From Microbulbifer agarilyticus (lineage in GTDB: Bacteria > Pseudomonadota > Gammaproteobacteria > Pseudomonadales > Cellvibrionaceae): a stretch of DNA of 64,000 nt. This document shows, one piece after another, positions 4,389-64,000 of the stretch (the first letter of the stretch is position 1; each line of letters starts with the position of its first letter). Under the pieces are notes generated by a model. That model was not told where the DNA came from, made no database searches, and saw nothing but the letters and a program-made list of their open reading frames with translations. The DNA is taken from positions 2,905,001 to 2,969,000 of the forward strand of contig NZ_CP019650.1 in the NCBI RefSeq assembly GCF_001999945.1, read 5' to 3'. The position numbers and the translations under genes are program-made.

Positions 4389-4751
4389 TCAGTCTTGCAG
4401 GCCTTCAGCGAGCCCTGCCTCGGGCAGCTTGCGCTGCGCGAGTAAATGTATGTGTAAGTGGAACACCGTCTGGCCAGCACCGCGGCCATTGTTGACCACC
4501 AGCCGAAACCCATCTTCCAAATGCAGGCGCTCGGCCATTTGCGATGCTACCCACATAAGATGACCGAGCAGTGGTACATCTTCTTCGCGTGCGTCTGCCA
4601 CGCTCACCAGCGGTTTACGGGGGATGATCAGCAGATGCGTTGGTGCCTGCGGTGCCCGGTCCTCGATGACGATACAGTGCTCATCTTCATACAGCCGCCG
4701 CGCCGGCAGCTCTCCGGCAATAATCCGGCTGAATACACTGACATCTTCCAT
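4389..4751 (-). CDS. HIT family protein (histidine triad hydrolase)
   Basis: A 120-residue histidine-triad protein with the diagnostic HLHIHLL motif at residues 98–104, close to the C-terminus as in bacterial HinT-type nucleoside phosphoramidases. The N-terminal FSRIIAGELPARRLYED segment is also typical. Family members hydrolyse AMP-lysine or other phosphoramidates; the true substrate is unknown here. The start at 4751 is chosen because earlier in-frame codons are not family-like. It lies 68 bp upstream of alaS on the same strand and may be cotranscribed with it. Confidence 0.88.
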   Translation of the reverse strand: MEDVSVFSRIIAGELPARRLYEDEHCIVIEDRAPQAPTHLLIIPRKPLVSVADAREEDVPLLGHLMWVASQMAERLHLEDGFRLVVNNGRGAGQTVFHLHIHLLAQRKLPEAGLAEGLQD

Positions 4752-4845
4752 GCTCGTCCCGCCCTGCTCTTCCTTGGCATATGCGCACTGCACCGAAACC
4801 CGGCGCAAACTCCGCCTATACCACCTAGGCGGTCACCACTAGGTG

Positions 4846-5031
4846 TTACTTGGCCAGCTTCTCGTCCGTAGTAAGGGGACGGGCTTCAGACTCCAACATC
4901 ACTGGAATGCCGTCGCGAATCGGGTACGCCAGGCCGCTTGCCTTGCACACCAGCTCCTGGGTTTCTTCGTGATATTCAAGAGGGGCCTTGCTGACGGGGC
5001 AAACCAACAAACTCAGTAATTTCTTGTCCAT
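4846..5031 (-). CDS. Trm112/YcaR-like small zinc-ribbon protein
   Basis: A 61-residue protein beginning [15 protein letters not shown], with CPVSK at 11–15 and the family signature [11 protein letters not shown] near residues 36–46. This is the YcaR/Trm112 family (UPF0434). The eukaryotic relative Trm112 activates methyltransferases; the bacterial role is not settled. Only some of the metal-binding cysteines of the zinc-ribbon forms are present (C11, C29). It lies between glpK and the HIT gene on the same strand. Confidence 0.85.
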
Positions 5032-5208
5032 TTCTATCTCGGAATAACACTCGGATGGCGCCCCAGAACCCGACTCACGGGACTCTCTGGGGCCTTGGAG
5101 GGCCAAAAATGACCGCGTATGGTACAACGCTTTTTCGGTGTTTTCACGACTGAGGGGAGAAATCCCCCGCGCAGTCTACCGGCGGGGGTAGATACGGTGG
5201 AGAGATGC

Positions 5209-6687
5209 CTAGAAGTGGCGGCAGGCGGAGACAGCGTTGCGCCACCCCGCGAGAAGGCCCTGACGTGTCTGGGGAGACATCTGCGGCAGAAAATCCTGCT
5301 CGATATCCTGCAGTGACGCCGGCAACGACTCACTCTGCCAGATTCCCGCCCCAATTCCGGCGAGCAGCGCCGCCCCAACCGCGGTGGACTCGATCTGGCG
5401 GGGGCGTTCGATCCGCAGGCCGGAAATATCCGCCTGGAATTGCATCAGGAAGTTGTTGGCGCTCGCACCGCCGTCGACCCGCAAACACTCGAGCTCAACC
5501 CCAAGGGTGCGCGCCATAAGCTCAGCCAGCTCGTGACTCTGGTAAGCGATGGATTCGAGCGTCGCGCGGACAATCTCGGCGCGCCCGGCGCCCCGCGACA
5601 GGCCAAATATGGCCCCGCGCGCATCGGCATCCCAATAGGGAGCCCCCAGGCCACTGAAGGCCGGCACCATATAGACACCCCGTGTATTGGGGATTTCCTG
5701 CGCCACTTTTTCAGATTCTGCCGCCTGGTGGATGATGCCGAGATCATCCCGCAGCCATTGCACCGCCGCACCGGCATTGAACACCGCACCCTCAATCACA
5801 AACTGGGGCATCCCCTTGGCATCACAGCCGATGGTGGTCAGCATGCCCTCCGGAACTAACGGGCGCTCCTGGCCGGCGCTGGCAAGTAAAAAACAACCGG
5901 TACCGTAGGTATTCTTCATGGTGCCGGGCTCGAAACATCCCTGCCCATAGAGTGCCGACTGCTGATCACCTGCCACCCCGGCGATGGGTACTGACGCACC
6001 GAGAAACGCGGCGGGATCGGTGGTACCAAAGCTGCCTGCGGAAGGCCGGATCTCCGGCAAGATCGCGGCCGGGCAATCAAACATCCGCAGCAGCTCCCTG
6101 TCCCACTGGCGGCGATCGAGATCGTAGAGCAAGGTACGGCAGGCGTTGGTGTGGTCGGTGAGATGCTGGCGCCCACCGGTAAAGCACCAGATAAGCCAGC
6201 TATCGATGGTGCCGAAGCAGAGCTCGCCGGCTTCCGCCCGGCGATGGAGCTCCGGGGATTCGCGAAAAATCCAGCGCAGCTTGCTGGCGGAAAAATAGGC
6301 ATCCAGCAGCAACCCGGTTTTAGCCCGCACCATGGGCTCGGCGCCGGCATTGCGCAACTCCCGACAAATACTCGCAGAGCGGCGGCACTGCCACACAATC
6401 GCCCGATGCACCGGCTCACCGGTTGCGCGGTCCCACAGCACCGTTGTTTCGCGCTGGTTGGTGATACCCAGTGCTGACAGCTCAGAGGGCTCGATACCGG
6501 CCCGCTTAATGGCCGCAGCACACACCTTGAGCGTGACCTGCCAGATTTCACTGGCATCGTGCTCCACCCAGCCCGGTTGCGGGTAGTACTGGGAAAATTC
6601 CGAGTAACTGCGTCCGCGCAGGTTGCCGTCGCGGTCGAAGACGAAAGCCGTGGTACCGGTGGTACCCTGGTCAATAGAGAGAATCAT
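5209..6687 (-). CDS. glpK: Glycerol kinase
   Basis: Phosphorylates glycerol to glycerol-3-phosphate in the cytoplasm. The 492-residue protein begins MILSIDQGTTGTTAFVFD, the FGGY-family phosphate-binding motif. It carries the typical core (ITNQRETTVLWD, GDQQSALYGQGC, TYGTGCFLL) and a C-terminal DGGAS segment, with length normal for GlpK. The N-terminus is some four residues shorter than the Escherichia coli enzyme. No glycerol facilitator or glpD is adjacent, so the uptake route is not visible here. Confidence 0.93.
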   Translation of the reverse strand: MILSIDQGTTGTTAFVFDRDGNLRGRSYSEFSQYYPQPGWVEHDASEIWQVTLKVCAAAIKRAGIEPSELSALGITNQRETTVLWDRATGEPVHRAIVWQCRRSASICRELRNAGAEPMVRAKTGLLLDAYFSASKLRWIFRESPELHRRAEAGELCFGTIDSWLIWCFTGGRQHLTDHTNACRTLLYDLDRRQWDRELLRMFDCPAAILPEIRPSAGSFGTTDPAAFLGASVPIAGVAGDQQSALYGQGCFEPGTMKNTYGTGCFLLASAGQERPLVPEGMLTTIGCDAKGMPQFVIEGAVFNAGAAVQWLRDDLGIIHQAAESEKVAQEIPNTRGVYMVPAFSGLGAPYWDADARGAIFGLSRGAGRAEIVRATLESIAYQSHELAELMARTLGVELECLRVDGGASANNFLMQFQADISGLRIERPRQIESTAVGAALLAGIGAGIWQSESLPASLQDIEQDFLPQMSPQTRQGLLAGWRNAVSACRHF

Positions 6688-34110: not shown

Positions 34111-34218
<108 letters not shown>

Positions 34219-57033: not shown

Positions 57034-57174
57034 GTGTAACGCGGCCAACTGAGACAGCGTACTTTGTGCCTTTACAGCGTAAAAATGGCACTCAATCTCC
57101 GGAGGAAACTCAGGAAAGATAAGCTATCCCACAAAGGGCTGCACGCTCAGAAAAATTTTCCGGCCTTGCTAGAT
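57034..57174 (-). repeat. Degenerate long attC site
   Basis: This 141-bp stretch aligns along its whole length with the 144-bp attC at 63455–63598: it shares TAACGC at one end, CAGC-TACTTTGTGC, GTAAAAATGG, GATAAGCTATCCC and TTTTCCGGCCTTG at the other. The core heptamers have drifted: R' is GTTACAC and R'' is ATCTAGC. The RimJ-like gene's stop lies inside the R'' end. Confidence 0.75.
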
Positions 57175-57693
57175 ATTTGTTGGATTGAGGAGGGACGTTA
57201 GCACGTGATCCTCCCAAATCCCATTAATTTTCAAATACCGCTTCGCCTCACCCTCTTTGACAAAACCAAGGCTCTTGAGCAGTATCGCCGACCTACCGTT
57301 TCTCGGCATGTAGTTTGCCATAACTCGATTTAACGAGAGGTCCGTAAACGCGTAATCGATGACGTGCTGACAAAGTGCCTTCATGACACCTCTACCCTCG
57401 TATCGATGATCAACCGCGTACCCCATATAACATGCCCTGAACGGACCTCGGACGACATTCGTGAGCGAACATGTAGCAACGATTTTATCGCTGCTAGGAT
57501 CGATTGAAATAAAGTGAAATGAATTGTCGCTTTCGGCTGGAGAGCACCACTCTTGCAAACGTGCCTCCCAGACAGATTCAGAGTGGTACTCTTCAGACTT
57601 ACTCGGTTCCCAAGCCTGCAGATGCGTCTGATTTACCTCATAGAACCTGGATAACCGGGCGGCGTCATCAATAGCGATTAATCTAACGTCCAT
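57169..57693 (-). CDS. RimJ/RimL-type GNAT acetyltransferase
   Basis: A 174-residue N-acetyltransferase. The acetyl-CoA-binding region is DHRYEGRGVMKALCQH, and the family's C-terminal block NYMPRNGRSAILLKSLGF and YLKINGIWEDHVLT is clear, as in RimJ/RimL, which acetylate ribosomal protein N-termini, though some members modify antibiotics or other small amines. The start ATG at 57693 is preceded directly by GTTATGC, an attC R'-like heptamer. Its stop sits in the degenerate attC at 57034–57174. Confidence 0.85.
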   Translation of the reverse strand: MDVRLIAIDDAARLSRFYEVNQTHLQAWEPSKSEEYHSESVWEARLQEWCSPAESDNSFHFISIDPSSDKIVATCSLTNVVRGPFRACYMGYAVDHRYEGRGVMKALCQHVIDYAFTDLSLNRVMANYMPRNGRSAILLKSLGFVKEGEAKRYLKINGIWEDHVLTSLLNPTNI

Positions 57694-57792
57694 GCATAAC
57701 TCTTAGTGACACAAAACTTGAATGGACGAGAACTCCACTCTCTAACACGAAAAAACAGCATCCCCATTCAGGTCATCCAATATTTCTACTTC

Positions 57793-58526
57793 TCATGAAG
57801 CGAAGGGGAACGCAATCAACTTACCCAGCTCTGTTCCTGGCAATACAGCGATACAAATGATCTGTGTACTGATGTAGAGCGGAATAGTCCATTTAAAGAC
57901 CGGGTGCACAGCACCAAACTTGAAACGGTCAATCAACACAGGGGCAACCAACAATCCATATGTACTCAGTAAAACGAGAGCCGTACCATCAACAGGAACG
58001 CCAGGTAGGTAGGCGACGCGTGTGATAGATGCAGAGACCATGCTTAATGATGCCAGAAGCATAAGACGCTTATGAGTATGGACATCGCTTCTAGCAATTA
58101 GAGCCGCGAGATAGAACGCAGAAAAGAAAAGTATCGTGTGGAGAATCCCCCATATCAGGCTCAGCTTGAACTGATCATTGCTTTTCATCACTTCGACTAG
58201 CATTTCAATACCGCTGACCTGGAGCAGGACAAAGAAACGATACTTGCATAGCCAAGATTTCTATGCAGGTTTAGCCTCCGCGATTGCACAAAGTTGCATT
58301 GCACACTGAACAAAATATACCACCCCAGATACAGGGCAGCGTGGATGATAAAATTTAATGGTACCGCTTCAGATGGACTTGAAATCTTTGAGTAATGAGG
58401 CATTACTGTTATAAAAATAACGCCGAGCAAAAATATGGAAAATTTTCCATATATAGGTTCCCTAGTAAAGCCTACGGATTCATTGCGATCACTTCCAGCT
58501 ACAACCCCTTTCTGAACCTGTTCCAT
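57793..58526 (-). pseudogene. Frameshifted membrane protein gene
   Basis: Two overlapping frames together make one multi-span membrane protein. The first (from the ATG at 58526, with AAGGAG six bases upstream) runs through FSIFLLGVIFITVMP and HAALYLGWYILFSVQ to LHRNLGYASIVSL, then changes into an unrelated tail (SCSRSAVLKC) and stops at 58197. The other frame supplies VLLQVSGIEMLVEVMKSND and continues with four hydrophobic segments to 57793. A single-base indel near 58213–58226 explains this. The intact protein would resemble DUF2306-like membrane proteins. A programmed frameshift is less likely, as I see no slippery heptamer there. Confidence 0.75.
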
Positions 58527-58618
58527 TTGGAACTCCTTTTTATTATTTAGAGGAAAACCCACTAAAGACCGGTATATTCTCCGATCTTATTATTTGACCA
58601 CAAACTTCTGCGCTACAC

Positions 58619-58879
58619 CTACGGGTATCGAACCTTATAGCCATAAGAATCCTTAAACTCGCCGAAAGCAATAATAATAAAGTCAACCAAAGCCCAAATA
58701 CCTAAGCCACCCAATGTCAGTAATTGAATAATCGCTGACAAATAGCGCTGAGCATAAAACCGATGCGCACCGAAAACTCCCAGAAAAAATGAGAGAACCA
58801 GCATAAGAAATATATTTAAGTCGCTTCTTTTCTGCGCATTACTATCTGAGACAATTCTTCCTTCCGTAGCTGAACTCAT
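58619..58879 (-). CDS. TM2-domain membrane protein
   Basis: An 86-residue protein with the TM2 pattern: two membrane helices joined by a short turn, with GVFGAHRFYAQRYLSAIIQL, LGGLGIWALVDFIIIAFGEF and a C-terminal DSYGYKVRYP. TM2 proteins are widespread small membrane proteins of unknown role. AAGGAG lies seven bases before the ATG at 58879. It sits between the frameshifted membrane gene and a GNAT gene in the cassette region, but no attC is seen beside it. Confidence 0.85.
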   Translation of the reverse strand: MSSATEGRIVSDSNAQKRSDLNIFLMLVLSFFLGVFGAHRFYAQRYLSAIIQLLTLGGLGIWALVDFIIIAFGEFKDSYGYKVRYP

Positions 58880-58981
58880 AGATTTCTCCTTTCTTAAACT
58901 GAGCGATGGCGCCGCAATCATCACCTAAGGCCTATAACAGTCATCAACCCAGCCCTCTGACAATCGACAACATAAAACTTT

Positions 58982-59443
58982 CTAGCCAGAGATCAGCTTC
59001 TTTTTTAGACAAAGAACACTGTGGCGCTCCGGAAAATCATCGAGCTCAGCGTAAACGCGGTATCCATACTTTTTATAGAACTCTGCTGCACTAAAACTAA
59101 AGGTATTAAGATATGAATAGCGGCAGCCGTTTCTGCGTGCTTCAGATTCTATAGTAGCCAGCAGCTTAGCTCCGAGCCCCTTTCCGCGAACAGAGCTCGA
59201 TACCCACAGGGTATCAATCCATAACCAGCTATAGTTCCCATAACTACCCTTAACACCACCAACTACATTATCTTCTATACCCCTAGCGAAGAATGTCAGC
59301 TCCTGGCGGTTTTCCGACCCGATGTACTTTTCAGTAAACTCGGCGATACCATCTGAAAGGGTATTGAGCTCACTAACGGTTGGGTTTAGCTCTTTTGTAA
59401 TTTCGTGGGTGCGCTTTATGCCTAGCGCCTCATTCAGAGGCAA
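58982..59443 (-). CDS. GNAT-family acetyltransferase (cassette gene)
   Basis: A 153-residue acetyltransferase with the acetyl-CoA loop WVSSSVRGKGLGAKLLATIE, then LNTFSFSAAEFYKKYGYRVYAELDDFP, typical of a GNAT group often found in integron cassettes. I chose the TTG at 59443 because it falls at the end of the preceding attC R' heptamer; an earlier TTG at 59485 would have the frame run through the attC itself. No good Shine-Dalgarno is visible. Confidence 0.75.
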   Translation of the reverse strand: MPLNEALGIKRTHEITKELNPTVSELNTLSDGIAEFTEKYIGSENRQELTFFARGIEDNVVGGVKGSYGNYSWLWIDTLWVSSSVRGKGLGAKLLATIESEARRNGCRYSYLNTFSFSAAEFYKKYGYRVYAELDDFPERHSVLCLKKKLISG

Positions 59444-59494
59444 ATAACTGTTGGCTAAAATATGCGACGCAGGAGCAAAAGCCAACTGTTATTT
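59442..59494 (-). repeat. Short (53-bp) attC site
   Basis: On the minus strand AAATAACAGTTGGCT (59494–59480) and AGCCAACAGTTATTT (59456–59442) form an inverted repeat with one central mismatch, enclosing 23 bases. The ends are complementary R'' (AAATAAC) and R' (GTTATTT) heptamers. The stop of the ankyrin gene overlaps R''. It is less conventional than the 59-bp element because the stem lacks the usual unpaired bases. Confidence 0.65.
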
Positions 59495-61381
59495 GTCCTG
59501 TTGCAATGACTTGTTAAGTGCCGATTGTATAGACTCTAAATATCTTATCCGAGCCCTGGTTGTTCGTGCCAAGCAAGCATTAAGCTGTTCATCTGTTGAA
59601 TAAATTTTGCATTCTGAATTCCTTCTCTTTAACCATGAAATTTGACTCGATTTTATATCAATAGTTAAATTATTGCTTGCAATAATATCTCGATAACCTT
59701 TGCTCAGCTCACGATCATAAATCGAAAGGCCTGCACTATTACATATCGCTTTTTCCAGACGGTTAAGCTTCCCGTCACACGAATAACTTGGTTTTATATC
59801 TTTTAGTTTTGAATATGTTTTTAACACGCTCTCAAATCCAGACATTTTTTCTTCCGCTGAAAATCTAGGATTTAAGTTGAGATAGTAGTCGAGGTTATTT
59901 CCCTTACTATCTTTGATTTTAACATCTGCTCCTGCATCAACCAAAAGTCGCATAACTTCAATAGAAGCATTTTCAGCTGCGTAAGTCAGAGCACTCCTAT
60001 TAAGACGCTCTAATTTAGAACCACATGAATATCCTGAGTCATGGCTAGTTACTTTATCTACAGGCCAACCAGAATCGAGCAAATATTTTACTGAATCAAA
60101 ATTATTCATGTGAGCAGCAAACATTAAAACATCTTTCTTGTAAAAAGATTCAATTGAGCTTTGACTAATAGTAGAAGGTAGCATTTCATAGGCTCGAGGA
60201 GAGTCTACCATTAACGAAAGCGCAACAAGTGGAACACTGCCGTATTTGAGTTTCAAATCCTGATTAATACTTTCCCAGTTATTGTAAGTTCCATCCACCA
60301 TTTGTTGAAAAATCGAAAAATCTTTGTCTTGGTTATAATAAACTCCTAGCGAATAATATCTACCAGGTATAGATTGAATAATTTTAGATGCATGTTCATA
60401 GGCTTCAGGCTCTGAATAGGAGTAATTAGAAACATAATGATTTTTTAGCTCTGCAATTGCATCAAACATTAAGTTTTTATTTGTAGCATGCTCTCTATAA
60501 CTCCAGATATCTTGATATTTCCAATCTTCAAAGTGCTTCTGCTGGAATTCAATTCTTGCTGCATCCCAACTATTTTTCGTACTTTTCCATGTTGGCTCAA
60601 TTGCCCAAGGCCTAATTATTGCCATTGAAGAAAAAAATTGACCACTCCACCTAGCTGCTACTTCAGGTCGAGAAGTCCCACAATCTCCATCAGATAACAC
60701 AATTTGTTCAACAGAACGCTTATATGCTGTAAACAATGGTAGTGACTCTTTCACGCCATCATCAAAATTCTGAAATATCTTTACTGTGCAAACATTTTTT
60801 GATGATCCATCTTGCTGAATTTGGTACACACTTCTTTGCGAGTTGTGACGATGAAAGTCGCCATAGTCAGTTAAAACATACCATTTATCTTTAAATTGAA
60901 ATGGGAGGTTTTCCCACCACGAAAAATCAGAACCATACGCCAAGGCACCCATTGGATAAAAAGGTACAAAAACATCTGTTTTTCTTTCTATTAAGTGGCT
61001 TTCTAAAACGTCTATTTCTTCGGACTCAATAATATAGCCAGTATATATATCACCACGCCAACTGTGTGAACGCTCATGGAATACATACATCTTTTGTGAG
61101 CCATAAAAATCAACGATCGCTGTTTTTAAATTTCCTCGACCATTTGAAACTTCTCGTAAGGAAAACTCAGGGAATGTAACCCCCTTAGATTTTTTGAGCC
61201 CTTCGGTACTTCTCTGCTTAGACTTAAAAAGTTCGCTATAGTGATTAAGCGCTAGATTACAAACATCACTATCGCTTGATTCAATTATATAGGGTTTAAA
61301 TGTTTCCCCTCTAACCGAAAAACTGAAACAAGTAAAAAATAACAAGGTGAAGGTGAAAACTTTTTGCATTGAACTCTTCAT
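59489..61381 (-). CDS. Secreted ankyrin-repeat protein with C-terminal LprI-like domain
   Basis: A 630-residue protein: a signal peptide (KVFTFTLLFFTCFSFSVRG), a long unrecognised central region, two ankyrin repeats (about 416–445 and 462–496; RSALTYAAENASIEVMRLLV is typical), and a C-terminal domain with CDGKLNRLEKAICNSAGLSI, then WLKRRNSEC and LNACLARTTRARIRYL, which matches the LprI/DUF1311 lysozyme-inhibitor-like pattern with its cysteines. The combination suggests a periplasmic protein-binding or lysozyme-protective role, not tested. Start between 61369 and 61405 is uncertain. It lies between two attC sites as a cassette, unusually large. Confidence 0.7.
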   Translation of the reverse strand: MKSSMQKVFTFTLLFFTCFSFSVRGETFKPYIIESSDSDVCNLALNHYSELFKSKQRSTEGLKKSKGVTFPEFSLREVSNGRGNLKTAIVDFYGSQKMYVFHERSHSWRGDIYTGYIIESEEIDVLESHLIERKTDVFVPFYPMGALAYGSDFSWWENLPFQFKDKWYVLTDYGDFHRHNSQRSVYQIQQDGSSKNVCTVKIFQNFDDGVKESLPLFTAYKRSVEQIVLSDGDCGTSRPEVAARWSGQFFSSMAIIRPWAIEPTWKSTKNSWDAARIEFQQKHFEDWKYQDIWSYREHATNKNLMFDAIAELKNHYVSNYSYSEPEAYEHASKIIQSIPGRYYSLGVYYNQDKDFSIFQQMVDGTYNNWESINQDLKLKYGSVPLVALSLMVDSPRAYEMLPSTISQSSIESFYKKDVLMFAAHMNNFDSVKYLLDSGWPVDKVTSHDSGYSCGSKLERLNRSALTYAAENASIEVMRLLVDAGADVKIKDSKGNNLDYYLNLNPRFSAEEKMSGFESVLKTYSKLKDIKPSYSCDGKLNRLEKAICNSAGLSIYDRELSKGYRDIIASNNLTIDIKSSQISWLKRRNSECKIYSTDEQLNACLARTTRARIRYLESIQSALNKSLQQDK

Positions 61382-61403
61382 ATGCACTGAACTATCCGTA
61401 GGC

Positions 61404-61462
61404 ATTTTACGCTTCAAACAGACGCGCGTGACAGCGCGTCGGCTTGCTTTGAATTGTTAAAC
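61404..61462 (-). repeat. Classical 59-base attC element
   Basis: Exactly 59 bp from R'' GTTTAAC (61462–61456, perfect consensus) to R' GTAAAAT (61410–61404, one mismatch). Inside is the perfect palindrome GACGCGC-GTGACA-GCGCGTC (61421–61440) and the outer TTCAAA/TTTGAA arms. The preceding gene's stop lies inside the element. This is the hallmark integron recombination site. Confidence 0.85.
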
Positions 61463-61902
61463 CTACGACCAATTTGCACAAAGAATCCCAGCAGTAAGAC
61501 CAGGAACATGAATGCCATTATGTAGCGAAACCAATTCATATAACTAATCCAATCCGTAAAGCTCATGAAGACTTCAGTTTTGCTCTCAATGCTAACAACA
61601 TGCTGATCGTACACTTTATATGTTATCTCGAAATCATTTCGCTCCAAGAACTCAGCGTAGGCAGTACATGGTTCGTCATGAGGTATTGCAGAGGTCGAGA
61701 CCCAATGGCGACCAGAAAGCTCCAATTTCCGTTTCGCTAGACCATCACGGCAATGAACATACTCTGCCTTTTTTGATATAGAAAGGAGGTTATTATCAGT
61801 TATCTCGAGCATCGACATTTTCCATGTATCCACGCATAGATAGCCCATGAGCACGCACATCAAGAGCATGATTACATTATTTAATTCTTTGCTTCTCGTC
61901 AT
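61414..61902 (-). CDS. Hypothetical cassette membrane protein
   Basis: I do not recognise this 162-residue protein. It has a membrane segment near residues 8–25, a soluble middle with cysteines in VHCRDG and EPCTAY, and a C-terminal span near 127–145 (WFRYIMAFMFLVLLLGFF). The last 20 codons run through the 59-bp attC. Its start at 61902 lies 13 bp after the R' heptamer of the next attC, the usual cassette spacing; the frame is open further upstream, but that stretch is inside the attC. Confidence 0.75.
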   Translation of the reverse strand: MTRSKELNNVIMLLMCVLMGYLCVDTWKMSMLEITDNNLLSISKKAEYVHCRDGLAKRKLELSGRHWVSTSAIPHDEPCTAYAEFLERNDFEITYKVYDQHVVSIESKTEVFMSFTDWISYMNWFRYIMAFMFLVLLLGFFVQIGRRFNNSKQADALSRASV

Positions 61903-61914
61903 ACTTACTGGTTG

Positions 61915-62059
61915 GTTTAACGCCCACAGCAGGGGCAGCTTACCTTGTGCGCATTTTGCGCAAAAATGGGAGCGTAGCGACCAGCGCAAAATGTGCACAA
62001 GGTAAGCTGTCCCGCGGAGGCTCGTAGGGCCGTAGCTTTACTGCCTGTGATTGTTAGAA
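61915..62059 (-). repeat. Long attC site (145 bp)
   Basis: R'' TTCTAAC (62059–62053) and R' GTTAAAC (61921–61915, perfect GTTRRRY) bracket a long inverted-repeat stem: AGCTTACCTTGTGC pairs with GCACAAGGTAAGCT. The same arms recur in the sites at 63455 and 63880. The previous gene stops two bases before R''. Confidence 0.9.
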
Positions 62060-62060
62060 A

Positions 62061-62564
62061 TCAAATGGACTCTTTAAGTGGCACTAAGTCCTTTATAGCT
62101 ACCTCTGTTTCCTTTTGGTAAAGCGCATGCGCACCAGAAGAAAACACATGAGTTCGACCAGCGCTTAATCCTAAGCCGACCTTTTTGATAGCAAGAGCAT
62201 CATCAGTTACGTTGCCGCTAGTAAAAATGAACTCGTAAAAATACGTTTTTCCTGGCTCCGCAGTGAACTTGTATTCAATTAATCTAGGTCCCATGAAAGC
62301 ATTAGTTTGAAGCGCTAACTCTTGCTCTCCGGGTGACACCTCCGCACGCAGAAACCCTTGCCCCCAAAGACATCCATGCTCCGCTTCGTTAAGTAAAAAT
62401 TTAAGGCACGCGGTCACGCCATCATCTGAATATTTTTTGTATATATAAACAACAGATTTTGACTCTTTCGCTTCATCTAGCCCAGAGAATACTGGCCCTT
62501 TCGCCACTGTCGATATACAACCGCTGAGAAGCATTGCAAGTATCGCTATCGCTAATTTCTTCAT
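62061..62564 (-). CDS. DUF2846-like cassette lipoprotein
   Basis: A 167-residue lipoprotein (MKKLAIAILAMLLSGC; lipobox LSGC). The body resembles DUF2846: SVVYIYKKYSDDG, then a lone Cys pair, and EVSPGEQELALQTNA before TAEPGKTYFYEFIF, a small beta-sandwich-like protein of unknown role. The start has a GAGGA upstream. It stops two bases before the R'' of the downstream attC and lies 26 bp below the next one, so it fills a whole cassette. Confidence 0.78.
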   Translation of the reverse strand: MKKLAIAILAMLLSGCISTVAKGPVFSGLDEAKESKSVVYIYKKYSDDGVTACLKFLLNEAEHGCLWGQGFLRAEVSPGEQELALQTNAFMGPRLIEYKFTAEPGKTYFYEFIFTSGNVTDDALAIKKVGLGLSAGRTHVFSSGAHALYQKETEVAIKDLVPLKESI

Positions 62565-62589
62565 TTTTTTCCTCGATATTTCATTATAT

Positions 62590-62733
62590 TTCTAACGCCC
62601 GCAACAGGGGCGACCAATGCTATGCACCTTTTGTGCAAAAATGGGGTCGCAGCGACCAGCACAAAAGGTGCATAGCGTTGGGCGTCCCGCGGAGGCCCAG
62701 AGGGCCGAAGCAACTTGCTTGCGCTTGTTATGC
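62590..62733 (-). repeat. Long attC site (144 bp), divergent subtype
   Basis: R'' GCATAAC (62733–62727) and R' GTTAGAA (62596–62590) bracket a stem with CCAATGCTATGCACC/GGTGCATAGCGTTGG, different from the common arms of the other long sites. The loop side keeps the same GCGTCCCGCGGAGGC segment. It lies between two cassette genes. Confidence 0.88.
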
Positions 62734-62736
62734 TTT

Positions 62737-63081
62737 TCAGAAGCTGTCATTGCACTCCCACAGATCCGGTACGCATCTTTCAATATCACTCATCTGGCAT
62801 ATAGCCATCTTTCGTTCTGTAGATACTCTGTAGAAGAAAACATTCTCTTCTGGAGCAATGCCACACCTAAATGAAACTATATCGCCACATTGCTTTGGTT
62901 TGACACATGCAGAGGCTGTAAATTCATGGTAAGCGGCACCAGTGAGGTCTTCTACAGCTATAGAGTTTGCGCGACGCTCTTGGACTCGATCATAAGGAAA
63001 TGGAGTACATGCAGATTGCATACAAACGAACACTAAGAGCGATACTAATCTACATGTCATCGAAAATAGGGCCCGAAGCAT
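62737..63081 (-). CDS. Hypothetical cassette lipoprotein
   Basis: A 114-residue protein that I do not recognise. It starts MLRALFSMTCRLVSLL and has a probable lipobox-like site (VCMQSAC); the mature part is rich in cysteines (SACVKPKQCGD, FRCGIAP, ERCVPDLWEC), suggesting disulfides outside the cytoplasm. The ATG at 63081 is provided by the attC R' heptamer GTTATGC; a second Met at 63060 would also do. Confidence 0.65.
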   Translation of the reverse strand: MLRALFSMTCRLVSLLVFVCMQSACTPFPYDRVQERRANSIAVEDLTGAAYHEFTASACVKPKQCGDIVSFRCGIAPEENVFFYRVSTERKMAICQMSDIERCVPDLWECNDSF

Positions 63082-63172
63082 AACGCCGCTAGCAGGGGCA
63101 GCCGGAGCGCAGCGTAGGTTGTCCCAGCCGAGCCCCGAAGGGGCTGGGCGATCCTGCCTAGCCTCGTTATTG
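63078..63172 (-). repeat. attC site (95 bp)
   Basis: R'' CAATAAC (63172–63166) and R' GTTATGC (63084–63078). The inner hairpin CCCAGCC-N15-GGCTGGG lies at 63123–63149. It keeps the GCCGCTAGCAGGGGCAGC segment next to R' seen in other sites but is shorter. Confidence 0.85.
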
Positions 63173-63237
63173 CGGCCGCACTCTGAACCCACTACTAGCA
63201 CTCTGCCAGCCACGGCTTGGCTGGCCACTGCCTAAAT

Positions 63238-63423
63238 TTACGAGGAAAGAATACCGCACTTCCCCCAACTATTTTTTATCTTACTGGCACTCCAGGGAAA
63301 TGCTCTGGATTGCCTTCCTCTACCGGGCCTGATCGAACACTCTAGGAACGAACATACTTGAATAGCAACCAGCCAAACTAGCTCAATGCCGGATGCTATT
63401 TTGAGGTAATGAAACTTCAGCAA
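63238..63423 (-). CDS. Possible small cassette protein
   Basis: An open frame of 61 residues with a TTG start and one hydrophobic stretch (GIELVWLVAIQVCSFL). It is the only candidate in this cassette, between the attC sites at 63078 and 63455. GAGG directly precedes the TTG, too close for a normal site. It may be non-coding. Confidence 0.35.
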   Translation of the reverse strand: MLKFHYLKIASGIELVWLVAIQVCSFLECSIRPGRGRQSRAFPWSASKIKNSWGKCGILSS

Positions 63424-63454
63424 CCTCGAATAAACGAAAAAAACCTACCGGCAC

Positions 63455-63598
63455 CAATAACGCCGCCGGCAGGGGCAGCTTACCTTGTGCGCATTTTGCG
63501 CAAAAATGGGAGCAAAGCGACCTGCGCAAAAGGTGCACAAGGTAAGCTGTCCCGCGGAGGGCCGAAGGCCCGGAGCAAATTGCCCGGCCTTGTTATGT
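63455..63598 (-). repeat. Long attC site (144 bp)
   Basis: R'' ACATAAC (63598–63592) and R' GTTATTG (63461–63455) bracket the same stem arms as at 61915. The upstream gene's TAA stop overlaps R''. This and the 61915 site are nearly identical over the left half. Confidence 0.9.
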
Positions 63599-63883
63599 GT
63601 GACCAACCACTCTTGCCAAAAGCGCAATGAAAGCCCAACCGACCAGCCCCCAAAAACTAAATTTTTGTACTTGAACAAGCAACCAAAATTTCTCAAATTG
63701 CTCTGGCACTATTCTTTCTCTAGCAGCGTCTTTATGCCAGATCGACCCTTTTATTACAAAGCGTGATCCTGGCTTTGAGAATGCCACGATGAAGAGCAAA
63801 ATCAGAAAAGACGAAACTCCCACCCCAAACACTAATACTTTAGGTATGTACTCATAAATCAAGGTGTAGTTTCCCTGACACAT
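63593..63883 (-). CDS. Hypothetical cassette membrane protein
   Basis: A 96-residue protein with two membrane segments (about 15–34 and 72–92) and a basic loop between (GSIWHKDAARERIVPEQFEKF). I do not recognise the family. The start ATG at 63883 is inside the R' heptamer (GTTATGT) of the next attC, and the stop TAA is inside the R'' of the next one, so the gene exactly fills its cassette. Confidence 0.72.
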   Translation of the reverse strand: MCQGNYTLIYEYIPKVLVFGVGVSSFLILLFIVAFSKPGSRFVIKGSIWHKDAARERIVPEQFEKFWLLVQVQKFSFWGLVGWAFIALLARVVGHT

Positions 63884-64000
63884 AACGCCGCCAGCAGGGG
63901 CAGCTTACCTTGTGCGCTTTTTGCACGAAAATGGGAGCAGAGCGACCTGCGCAAAAGGTGCACAAGGTAAGCTGTCCCGCGGAGGGCCGCAGGCCCGGAG
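63880..64000 (-). repeat. Long attC site, cut by the window edge
   Basis: R' GTTATGT (63886–63880) and the shared stem arms run to the end of the window; the R'' end is outside. Over the visible 121 bp it closely matches the 63455 site. Confidence 0.88.

Follow-up and report, generated by a model that had tools for sequence, protein, structure and literature searches.

An integrase-less gene cassette array headed by an orphan attI site in Microbulbifer agarilyticus: a probable satellite integron served in trans

The 64,000-nucleotide stretch of DNA analysed here (the window) covers positions 2905001-2969000 of the complete 4,255,625-bp chromosome of Microbulbifer agarilyticus (Microbulbifer group), and its right end holds an integron gene cassette array that runs two cassettes (~0.8 kb) past the edge, to genome position 2969820. 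The array is headed by an orphan attI site, with no integrase gene (intI) beside it; one near-identical cassette stands first at three orphan attI sites of the chromosome, and the cassettes at such sites differ between sister species. From these observations on sequence, we consider it quite probable that the feature is a satellite integron, that is, an attI site with cassettes, located after a housekeeping gene and filled in trans by distant integrases.

The first-pass annotation of the window had described a chromosomal-integron cassette array read leftwards, with its insertion end on the right and an integrase past position 64,000. The direction is borne out by an attI-like site at the right end, where the profile search described below places it; the same profile has no match inside the window. 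The expected integrase is not there. Beyond the attI lie an mscS-like gene and then fumarase (names that we assign by eye), and no intI is closer than 114 kb. The rightward search that the annotation had proposed for both attI and intI consequently yields the attI alone, and tblastn with both integrases of the genome detects no integrase remnant in the 15 kb from attI onwards (best E 1.3). Over 252 bp, the orphan attI region shares 71% identity with that of intI-A, one of these two integrase genes. With respect to known classes, the array has the cassettes with attC sites of a complete chromosomal integron and lacks intI beside its attI; it fits the definition of an integrase-less attC cluster (CALIN; at least two attC sites and no intI nearby); and its target is not unrelated to attI, as it would be in an insertion at a secondary site (attG). 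An Rfam scan of the attI and first-cassette region gave nothing convincing. A sigma-70 scan of locus L005, positions 4400-5280, found no promoter-like sites against 1.8 expected in shuffles, and that scan thus gives no support to a Pc promoter in the orphan attI.

The chromosome carries two integrase genes and seven attI sites. The gene intI-A, at 2,854,665, has its own attI and array, and intI-B, at ~215 kb, its own attI. Both products match TIGR02249 (416 and 402 bits) and are 69% identical to each other, and a LexA-type box lies upstream of both genes; no such box is found within ~490 bp of the orphan attI sites. In this genome and its relatives, a core of the type TGAATAAA(A)CTG^TTA occurs ~300 bp upstream of intI in 17 of the 21 intI loci examined. 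The pattern was not found at the other four (L045-L048), two of which have less than 500 bp of upstream DNA, and its two coarse types, with three or four A residues, sort imperfectly by genome. A profile trained on 18 integrase-linked attI sites (the 17 core loci and the intI-B attI), and on zero orphans, identifies seven sites in the genome at E <= 0.05, of which two are linked to intI and five are orphans (Table 1). As a control under stricter filters, none of 113 other genomes of the class matches at E <= 1e-3. On the far side (6.8 to 15 kb) of the five orphans, tblastn with both integrases reached a best E of 0.47, and both controls were recovered. In a genome-wide attC search, arrays begin directly after four of the five orphans, and all four multi-attC arrays found without intI begin with an attI-like site. 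That search scored the best 150 of 1162 candidates and misses, for example, the site at window position 59420; 65 of its 108 rows were used, the remaining 43 overlapping a used site on the opposite strand. A lone attC at 2750200-2750343 has no adjoining attI or intI by the models used.

Two observations on the attI sites stand apart. All seven point along positive GC skew (on the plus strand where skew is positive and on the minus strand where it is negative), which is the leading-strand direction; the arrays themselves add to the measured skew. The site at 277864-277886 and a site at 2764680 in genome G047 are orthologous sites in two species, and form a third attI-like type that the profile misses nearly or fully.

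Movement of cassettes into orphan sites is indicated by the first cassette of the window array, which exists in four copies (~99% identical) in the genome. Three of the copies stand first after orphan attI sites of differing sequence (the window array, 2052 kb and 1186 kb), and the fourth is internal in the 278 kb array (~279 kb). Similarity between copies spans the crossover to the next cassette's crossover, and the following cassette differs in all four. The attC of this cassette ends in T^TTA in all four own-genome copies, not the usual G^TTA; it is missed by the attC covariance model and was recognised by eye and by the end points of the copies. The cassette carries a LexA-type box and a 58-aa open reading frame (ORF) for which frames in G007 and G047 are homologous. 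Among six matches outside the genome, the homologues in G007 (81%) and G047 (79%) retain the LexA-type box and likewise occupy first position behind an attI-type core, which is a profile match in G007; in G047 it is not one and was read by eye. The box is absent from a second G047 copy and from the G011 and G012 homologues, and the G028 match extends over 53 bp. We hypothesize that this is an SOS-responsive cassette.

A comparable picture is seen where orthologous orphan sites are compared between species. Of 36 pairs compared at two loci (fumarase and sucCD), with 1200 bp of flank, two match without interruption as far as the crossover. One is G000 with G001 at the site of the window array, behind fumarase and mscS (92.6% identity over the 1200 bp before the crossover), and the other is G024 with G027 behind sucCD (95.3% up to the crossover); beyond it, only attC stretches match in either pair. 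No intI was found at the G001 loci by tblastn.

Orphan attI sites are common across the genus. Matches to intI (E <= 1e-40) were found in 43 of 48 genus genomes, with two or three in 28 of these, and attI matches at E <= 0.05 in at least 47 of the 48 among the matches listed, including the five without an intI match. Among 16 complete genomes (this one and 15 relatives), the relatives have 70 attI matches at E <= 1e-3, comprising 15 beside intI and 55 orphans; the orphans are spread over 14 of the 15, and the nearest intI to any of them lies at least 22,991 bp away (30 rows used, five rows of 78-87 bits under the cut-off being left out). By hand count, a correctly oriented attC follows within 2.6 kb in 49 of the 55. 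For four complete genomes the association can be set against expectation: of 26 orphans (E <= 0.05), 16 are followed within 3 kb by an attC on the same strand versus ~0.2 expected, and in the 14 kb upstream of the attI sites no attC is listed (attC rows used: 48 of 52 in G029, 78 of 81 in G036 and 24 of 26 in G047, besides those of the present genome).

The positions of these orphans are conserved. An orphan attI adjoins fumarase in seven genomes. The mscS-like gene intervenes in just two of them, G000 and G001, the flank match being limited to its fumarase part in the remaining five. Another adjoins sucCD in seven genomes, with the G002 attI matched in part only. Where intI was detected in genomes with an orphan at either locus, it sits elsewhere. 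A third shared orphan site, in G000 and G047, stands beside a ubiD-like gene (83% over 966 bp of flank).

Several genomes bear on the fate of integrases in the genus. G024, G033, G038, G040 and G042 have no intI at E <= 1e-40, yet have attC and attI matches (in G033 a single marginal one, E 0.045), and their arrays are possibly left over after loss of every integrase. Partial intI genes occur in several genomes, e.g., G028 at 2120379 and G034 at 922717, and some intI matches are flagged with one internal stop, which may be a broken gene or the gene's own stop.

If the window array is a satellite integron, IntI-A and IntI-B, made elsewhere, would insert and excise cassettes at the orphan attI in trans, through ordinary attI x attC and attC x attC recombination. 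Because a LexA-type box lies upstream of both intI genes, they would probably be SOS-induced. Arrival of the cassettes by integrase-made insertion, the action of IntI-A or IntI-B at the orphans, and SOS control and cassette expression at satellite arrays are what we infer from the DNA. The orphans themselves may have originated through old loss of intI from former integrons, or through copying of an attI region. A further test compared orphan cores with the intI-linked attI of their own genome: for the 45 of 55 orphans that were usable, the resemblance is 24.0 of 30 nt versus 19.8 with genomes permuted, and none of 5000 permutations reaches 24.0. A broader proposal, which in our judgement could fall either way, is that of a distributed integron, in which, across this genus, one to three SOS-controlled integrases serve more numerous fixed, stand-alone attI sites after housekeeping genes, thereby spreading cassette capture and expression, and in which the first cassette with its LexA-type box may give SOS control of some arrays.

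A number of points weigh against service in trans. An unbroken match up to the crossover is the minority outcome at the orthologous sites: in the other 34 pairs, the long flank match stops earlier or is absent within 1200 bp, although in some of them a separate weaker match (68-69%) or a short core match reaches the crossover, and G032 and G031 share a downstream stretch of 1.1 kb at 64% identity. G024, a member of one of the two turnover pairs, is among the genomes without intI at E <= 1e-40, so that its present array may be frozen. Six of the 55 orphans (L218, L225, L228, L231, L240 and L250) have no attC found within reach, and the only attC-like sequence following the 1268 kb orphan of the present genome is truncated to 30 nt and lies ~360 bp away (19.8 bits, filters off). 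The resemblance of cores within genomes is confounded by kinship, which could yield part of the signal, and several orphans fit another genome's attI better. The attI profile is tuned to the genus and its near relatives. As for the copied cassette, the orphans of the window array and of the 2052 kb array share at least 18 nt before the crossover, so the left breakpoint can be placed no more precisely than within those nucleotides; relative to the 1186 kb site the uncertainty is 6 nt. Finally, the left part of the window array looks decayed.

The last point would be expected if the array were a dead relic, in which a complete integron at this location lost intI by deletion and the array is merely decaying. 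CALINs have been proposed to be degraded integrons (PMC9024848, PMC8618304), the homology of the orphan attI ends just before the integrase promoter region, partial intI genes are found in the genus, and the left end of the array is degenerate. Set against this are the same cassette in three orphan sites and the unrelated cassettes at orthologous sites without intI, which together imply that cassettes entered with no intI adjoining. We therefore regard a relic as unlikely; it is only the inactive version that is disfavoured, intI loss being compatible with the origin of the sites. We rejected a rearrangement that would have detached the array from that of intI-A, because an orphan attI keeps the same neighbour in other species.

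Cassettes might also have moved with no integrase at all, through homologous recombination among the near-identical attC repeats (140 bp) of different arrays, which are often 85-97% identical over ~140 bp. The first cassette, however, has no attC on its attI side, and the similarity of its copies ends on both sides at the crossover or no more than a few nucleotides from it (with the 18-nt limit for the 2052 kb pair). Moreover, complementarity of a cassette's own R' and R'' boxes, seen in 47 of 55 cassettes, marks integrase-made units, and this route appears very unlikely. We give still less weight to an off-target insertion at a chance secondary site (attG) that later grew into an array, a proposed route to CALINs (PMC8618304; attG is mentioned in PMC12444791). 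In its favour, the resemblance to the attI of intI-A at the 278 kb locus is confined to 22 bp; that site is nevertheless orthologous in G047, so it looks like an attI lineage too, the orphan of the window array has 250 bp of attI-type sequence, and an orphan attI beside fumarase recurs in seven genomes.

Two known organizations come close to the window array. Like a CALIN, the window array has several attC sites and cassettes and no intI nearby; unlike one, it is headed by a recognizable attI, keeps the same chromosomal neighbours in several species and shows evidence of insertion there. It shares with the sedentary chromosomal integrons of Vibrio and Xanthomonas an attI, a directional array, long similar attC sites and mostly unknown cargo, and also the attI orientation along the leading strand (PMC11023631), and differs from them in having no intI in cis and in belonging to a chromosome with two complete integrons and five further attI-like sites. 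The origins named for CALINs are off-target insertion, intI loss and rearrangement (PMC8618304, PMC9024848), and a functional IntI is described as able to mobilize them in trans (PMC12444791); for the window array, the comparisons of cassettes and genomes above give indirect evidence of such mobilization. Certain chromosomal integrases appear to depend on host factors (PMC8946536). Gene-less, promoter-bearing cassettes are known in Vibrio (PMC11014356, where LexA is not mentioned).

Another chromosome of interest is that of Saccharophagus degradans 2-40, a related marine bacterium. As in M. agarilyticus, a core integron is accompanied by several further cassette-like regions (PMC2386152), and attI is not mentioned in the main text of that paper. 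In the titles and opening abstract lines of open-licence papers, we found neither attI-headed arrays without intI nor Microbulbifer integrons as a subject. Integrase-less clusters are known; what we have not found described in those papers is clusters that are headed by attI, conserved in position and in receipt of cassettes. Outside class 1 integrons, attI goes undetected by the standard program (PMC9024848), and attI-headed clusters would therefore be counted as plain CALINs. Use of the orphan attI sites in trans, if it occurs, would mean that a CALIN is not necessarily dead, that counts of integrons per genome are too low, and that several insertion sites can be supplied by one integrase; an attI at the start of a cluster would then be a testable guide to which CALINs are active.

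Table 1. Features of the cassette array and attI sites of the chromosome. Coordinates are window positions unless stated; beyond the edge, window-equivalent (w.e.) positions equal the genome position minus 2905000.
Feature	Position	Strand	Evidence
attC, degenerate, distal (left) array end	57034..57174	-	Covariance model 31.4 bits, E 1.9e-6; non-seed
GNAT acetyltransferase, RimJ-like but under NCBIfam cut-off	57169..57693	-	PF13302 E 2.4e-15; NF008072 162.9 bits vs cut-off 190
136-aa ORF	57793..58203	-	No family match
121-aa ORF	58197..58562	-	No family match
TM2-domain protein	58619..58882	-	PF05154 E 3e-17
GNAT acetyltransferase	58982..59485	-	PF00583 E 2.5e-14
attC	59420..59519	-	Covariance model 41.1 bits, E 3e-9; non-seed
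642-aa ORF, ankyrin repeats and LprI-like C-terminus	59489..61417	-	PF12796 E 7.7e-9; PF07007 E 1e-5
attC candidate, weak	61404..61462	-	21.1 bits, E 2.5e-4, filters off only; non-seed
162-aa ORF	61414..61902	-	No family match
attC	61915..62059	-	Model seed; own R'/R'' match; fold z -7.6
Putative lipoprotein (by eye)	62061..62564	-	Weak DUF2846 match, PF11008 E 7e-7, under cut-off
attC	62590..62733	-	Model seed; covariance model, R'/R'' test, fold test
114-aa ORF	62737..63081	-	No family match
attC	63078..63172	-	Model seed; covariance model, R'/R'' test; fold z -1.4
attC	63455..63598	-	Model seed; covariance model, R'/R'' test, fold test
96-aa ORF, hydrophobic stretches (by eye)	63593..63883	-	No family match
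attC cut by window edge	63880..64000 (whole site to w.e. 64023)	-	Model seed
Second-cassette ORF, beyond edge	w.e. 64042-64407		
First cassette, beyond edge	w.e. 64421-64819 (genome 2969421-2969819)		
Orphan attI heading the window array, beyond edge	w.e. 64817-65066 (genome 2969817)		attI profile E 4e-10
mscS-like gene, beyond edge	w.e. 65277-66134		
Orphan attI	genome 1186744		attI profile E 3e-11
Orphan attI	genome 2052623		attI profile E 8e-8
Orphan attI behind sucCD	genome 1268384		attI profile E 8e-6
attI-like site	genome 277864 (277864-277886)		attI profile E 0.018, weak

Within the window, attC sites were sought with a covariance model built from 25 seeds, all from this genome; a strict ungapped-arm hairpin search had missed real attC sites, and looser arm scans supplied the seeds. 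The five strongest window sites (61915, 62590, 63078, 63455 and 63880) are seeds, whose scores follow by construction and are no test. Three sites that are not seeds reach 41, 31 and 21 bits. The first-pass annotation's description of minus-strand genes separated by attC sites applies mainly to 59.4-64.0 kb; the left 4.7 kb of the array is sparse in recognizable sites, and none lies between the ORFs at 57.2-59.0 kb. It had also held that its reading would fail if the contig had neither an integrase nor covariance-model matches; both are present, and the location that it gave for the integrase is still wrong. Window positions 1-57033 contain no attC covariance match at E <= 1, four weak plus-strand rows are mirror matches of seed sites, and an Rfam scan of the window did not find the attC family.

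Independently of the model, the outer 3 nt of a cassette's own R' are complementary to its own R'' in all four cassettes tested in the window array, as is characteristic of integron gene cassettes. The 47 of 55 cassettes that show this come from five arrays of the genome, versus 6 of 55 in a control pairing both boxes of a single site; the 1187 kb array performs poorly in this test (1 of 6 perfect). Bottom-strand folding, compared with shuffles at six sites, is strong at three (z ~ -7) and gives z values of -3.3, -1.4 and -0.8 at the others; at 57034-57174 the bottom strand folds no better than shuffles. The attC at 63078..63172, together with the ORF-poor cassette at its right, matches part of the intI-A array (2851714-2852230) at 95% identity over 518 bp. 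The array is lower in GC content than the rest, 0.434 in 57034-64000 versus 0.568 in window 1-55000.

The cargo consists of two acetyltransferases, a TM2 protein, an ankyrin/LprI-like protein, a putative lipoprotein and ORFs that match no family. The annotation's statement that these are not resistance genes agrees with a scan of ten ORFs, in which no resistance family exceeded its curated cut-off; the two acetyltransferases match ArsN-type models weakly (23-31 bits versus cut-offs of 125-170). Elsewhere in the window, an ordinary bacterial small signal recognition particle RNA (RF00169) lies at 34114-34210.

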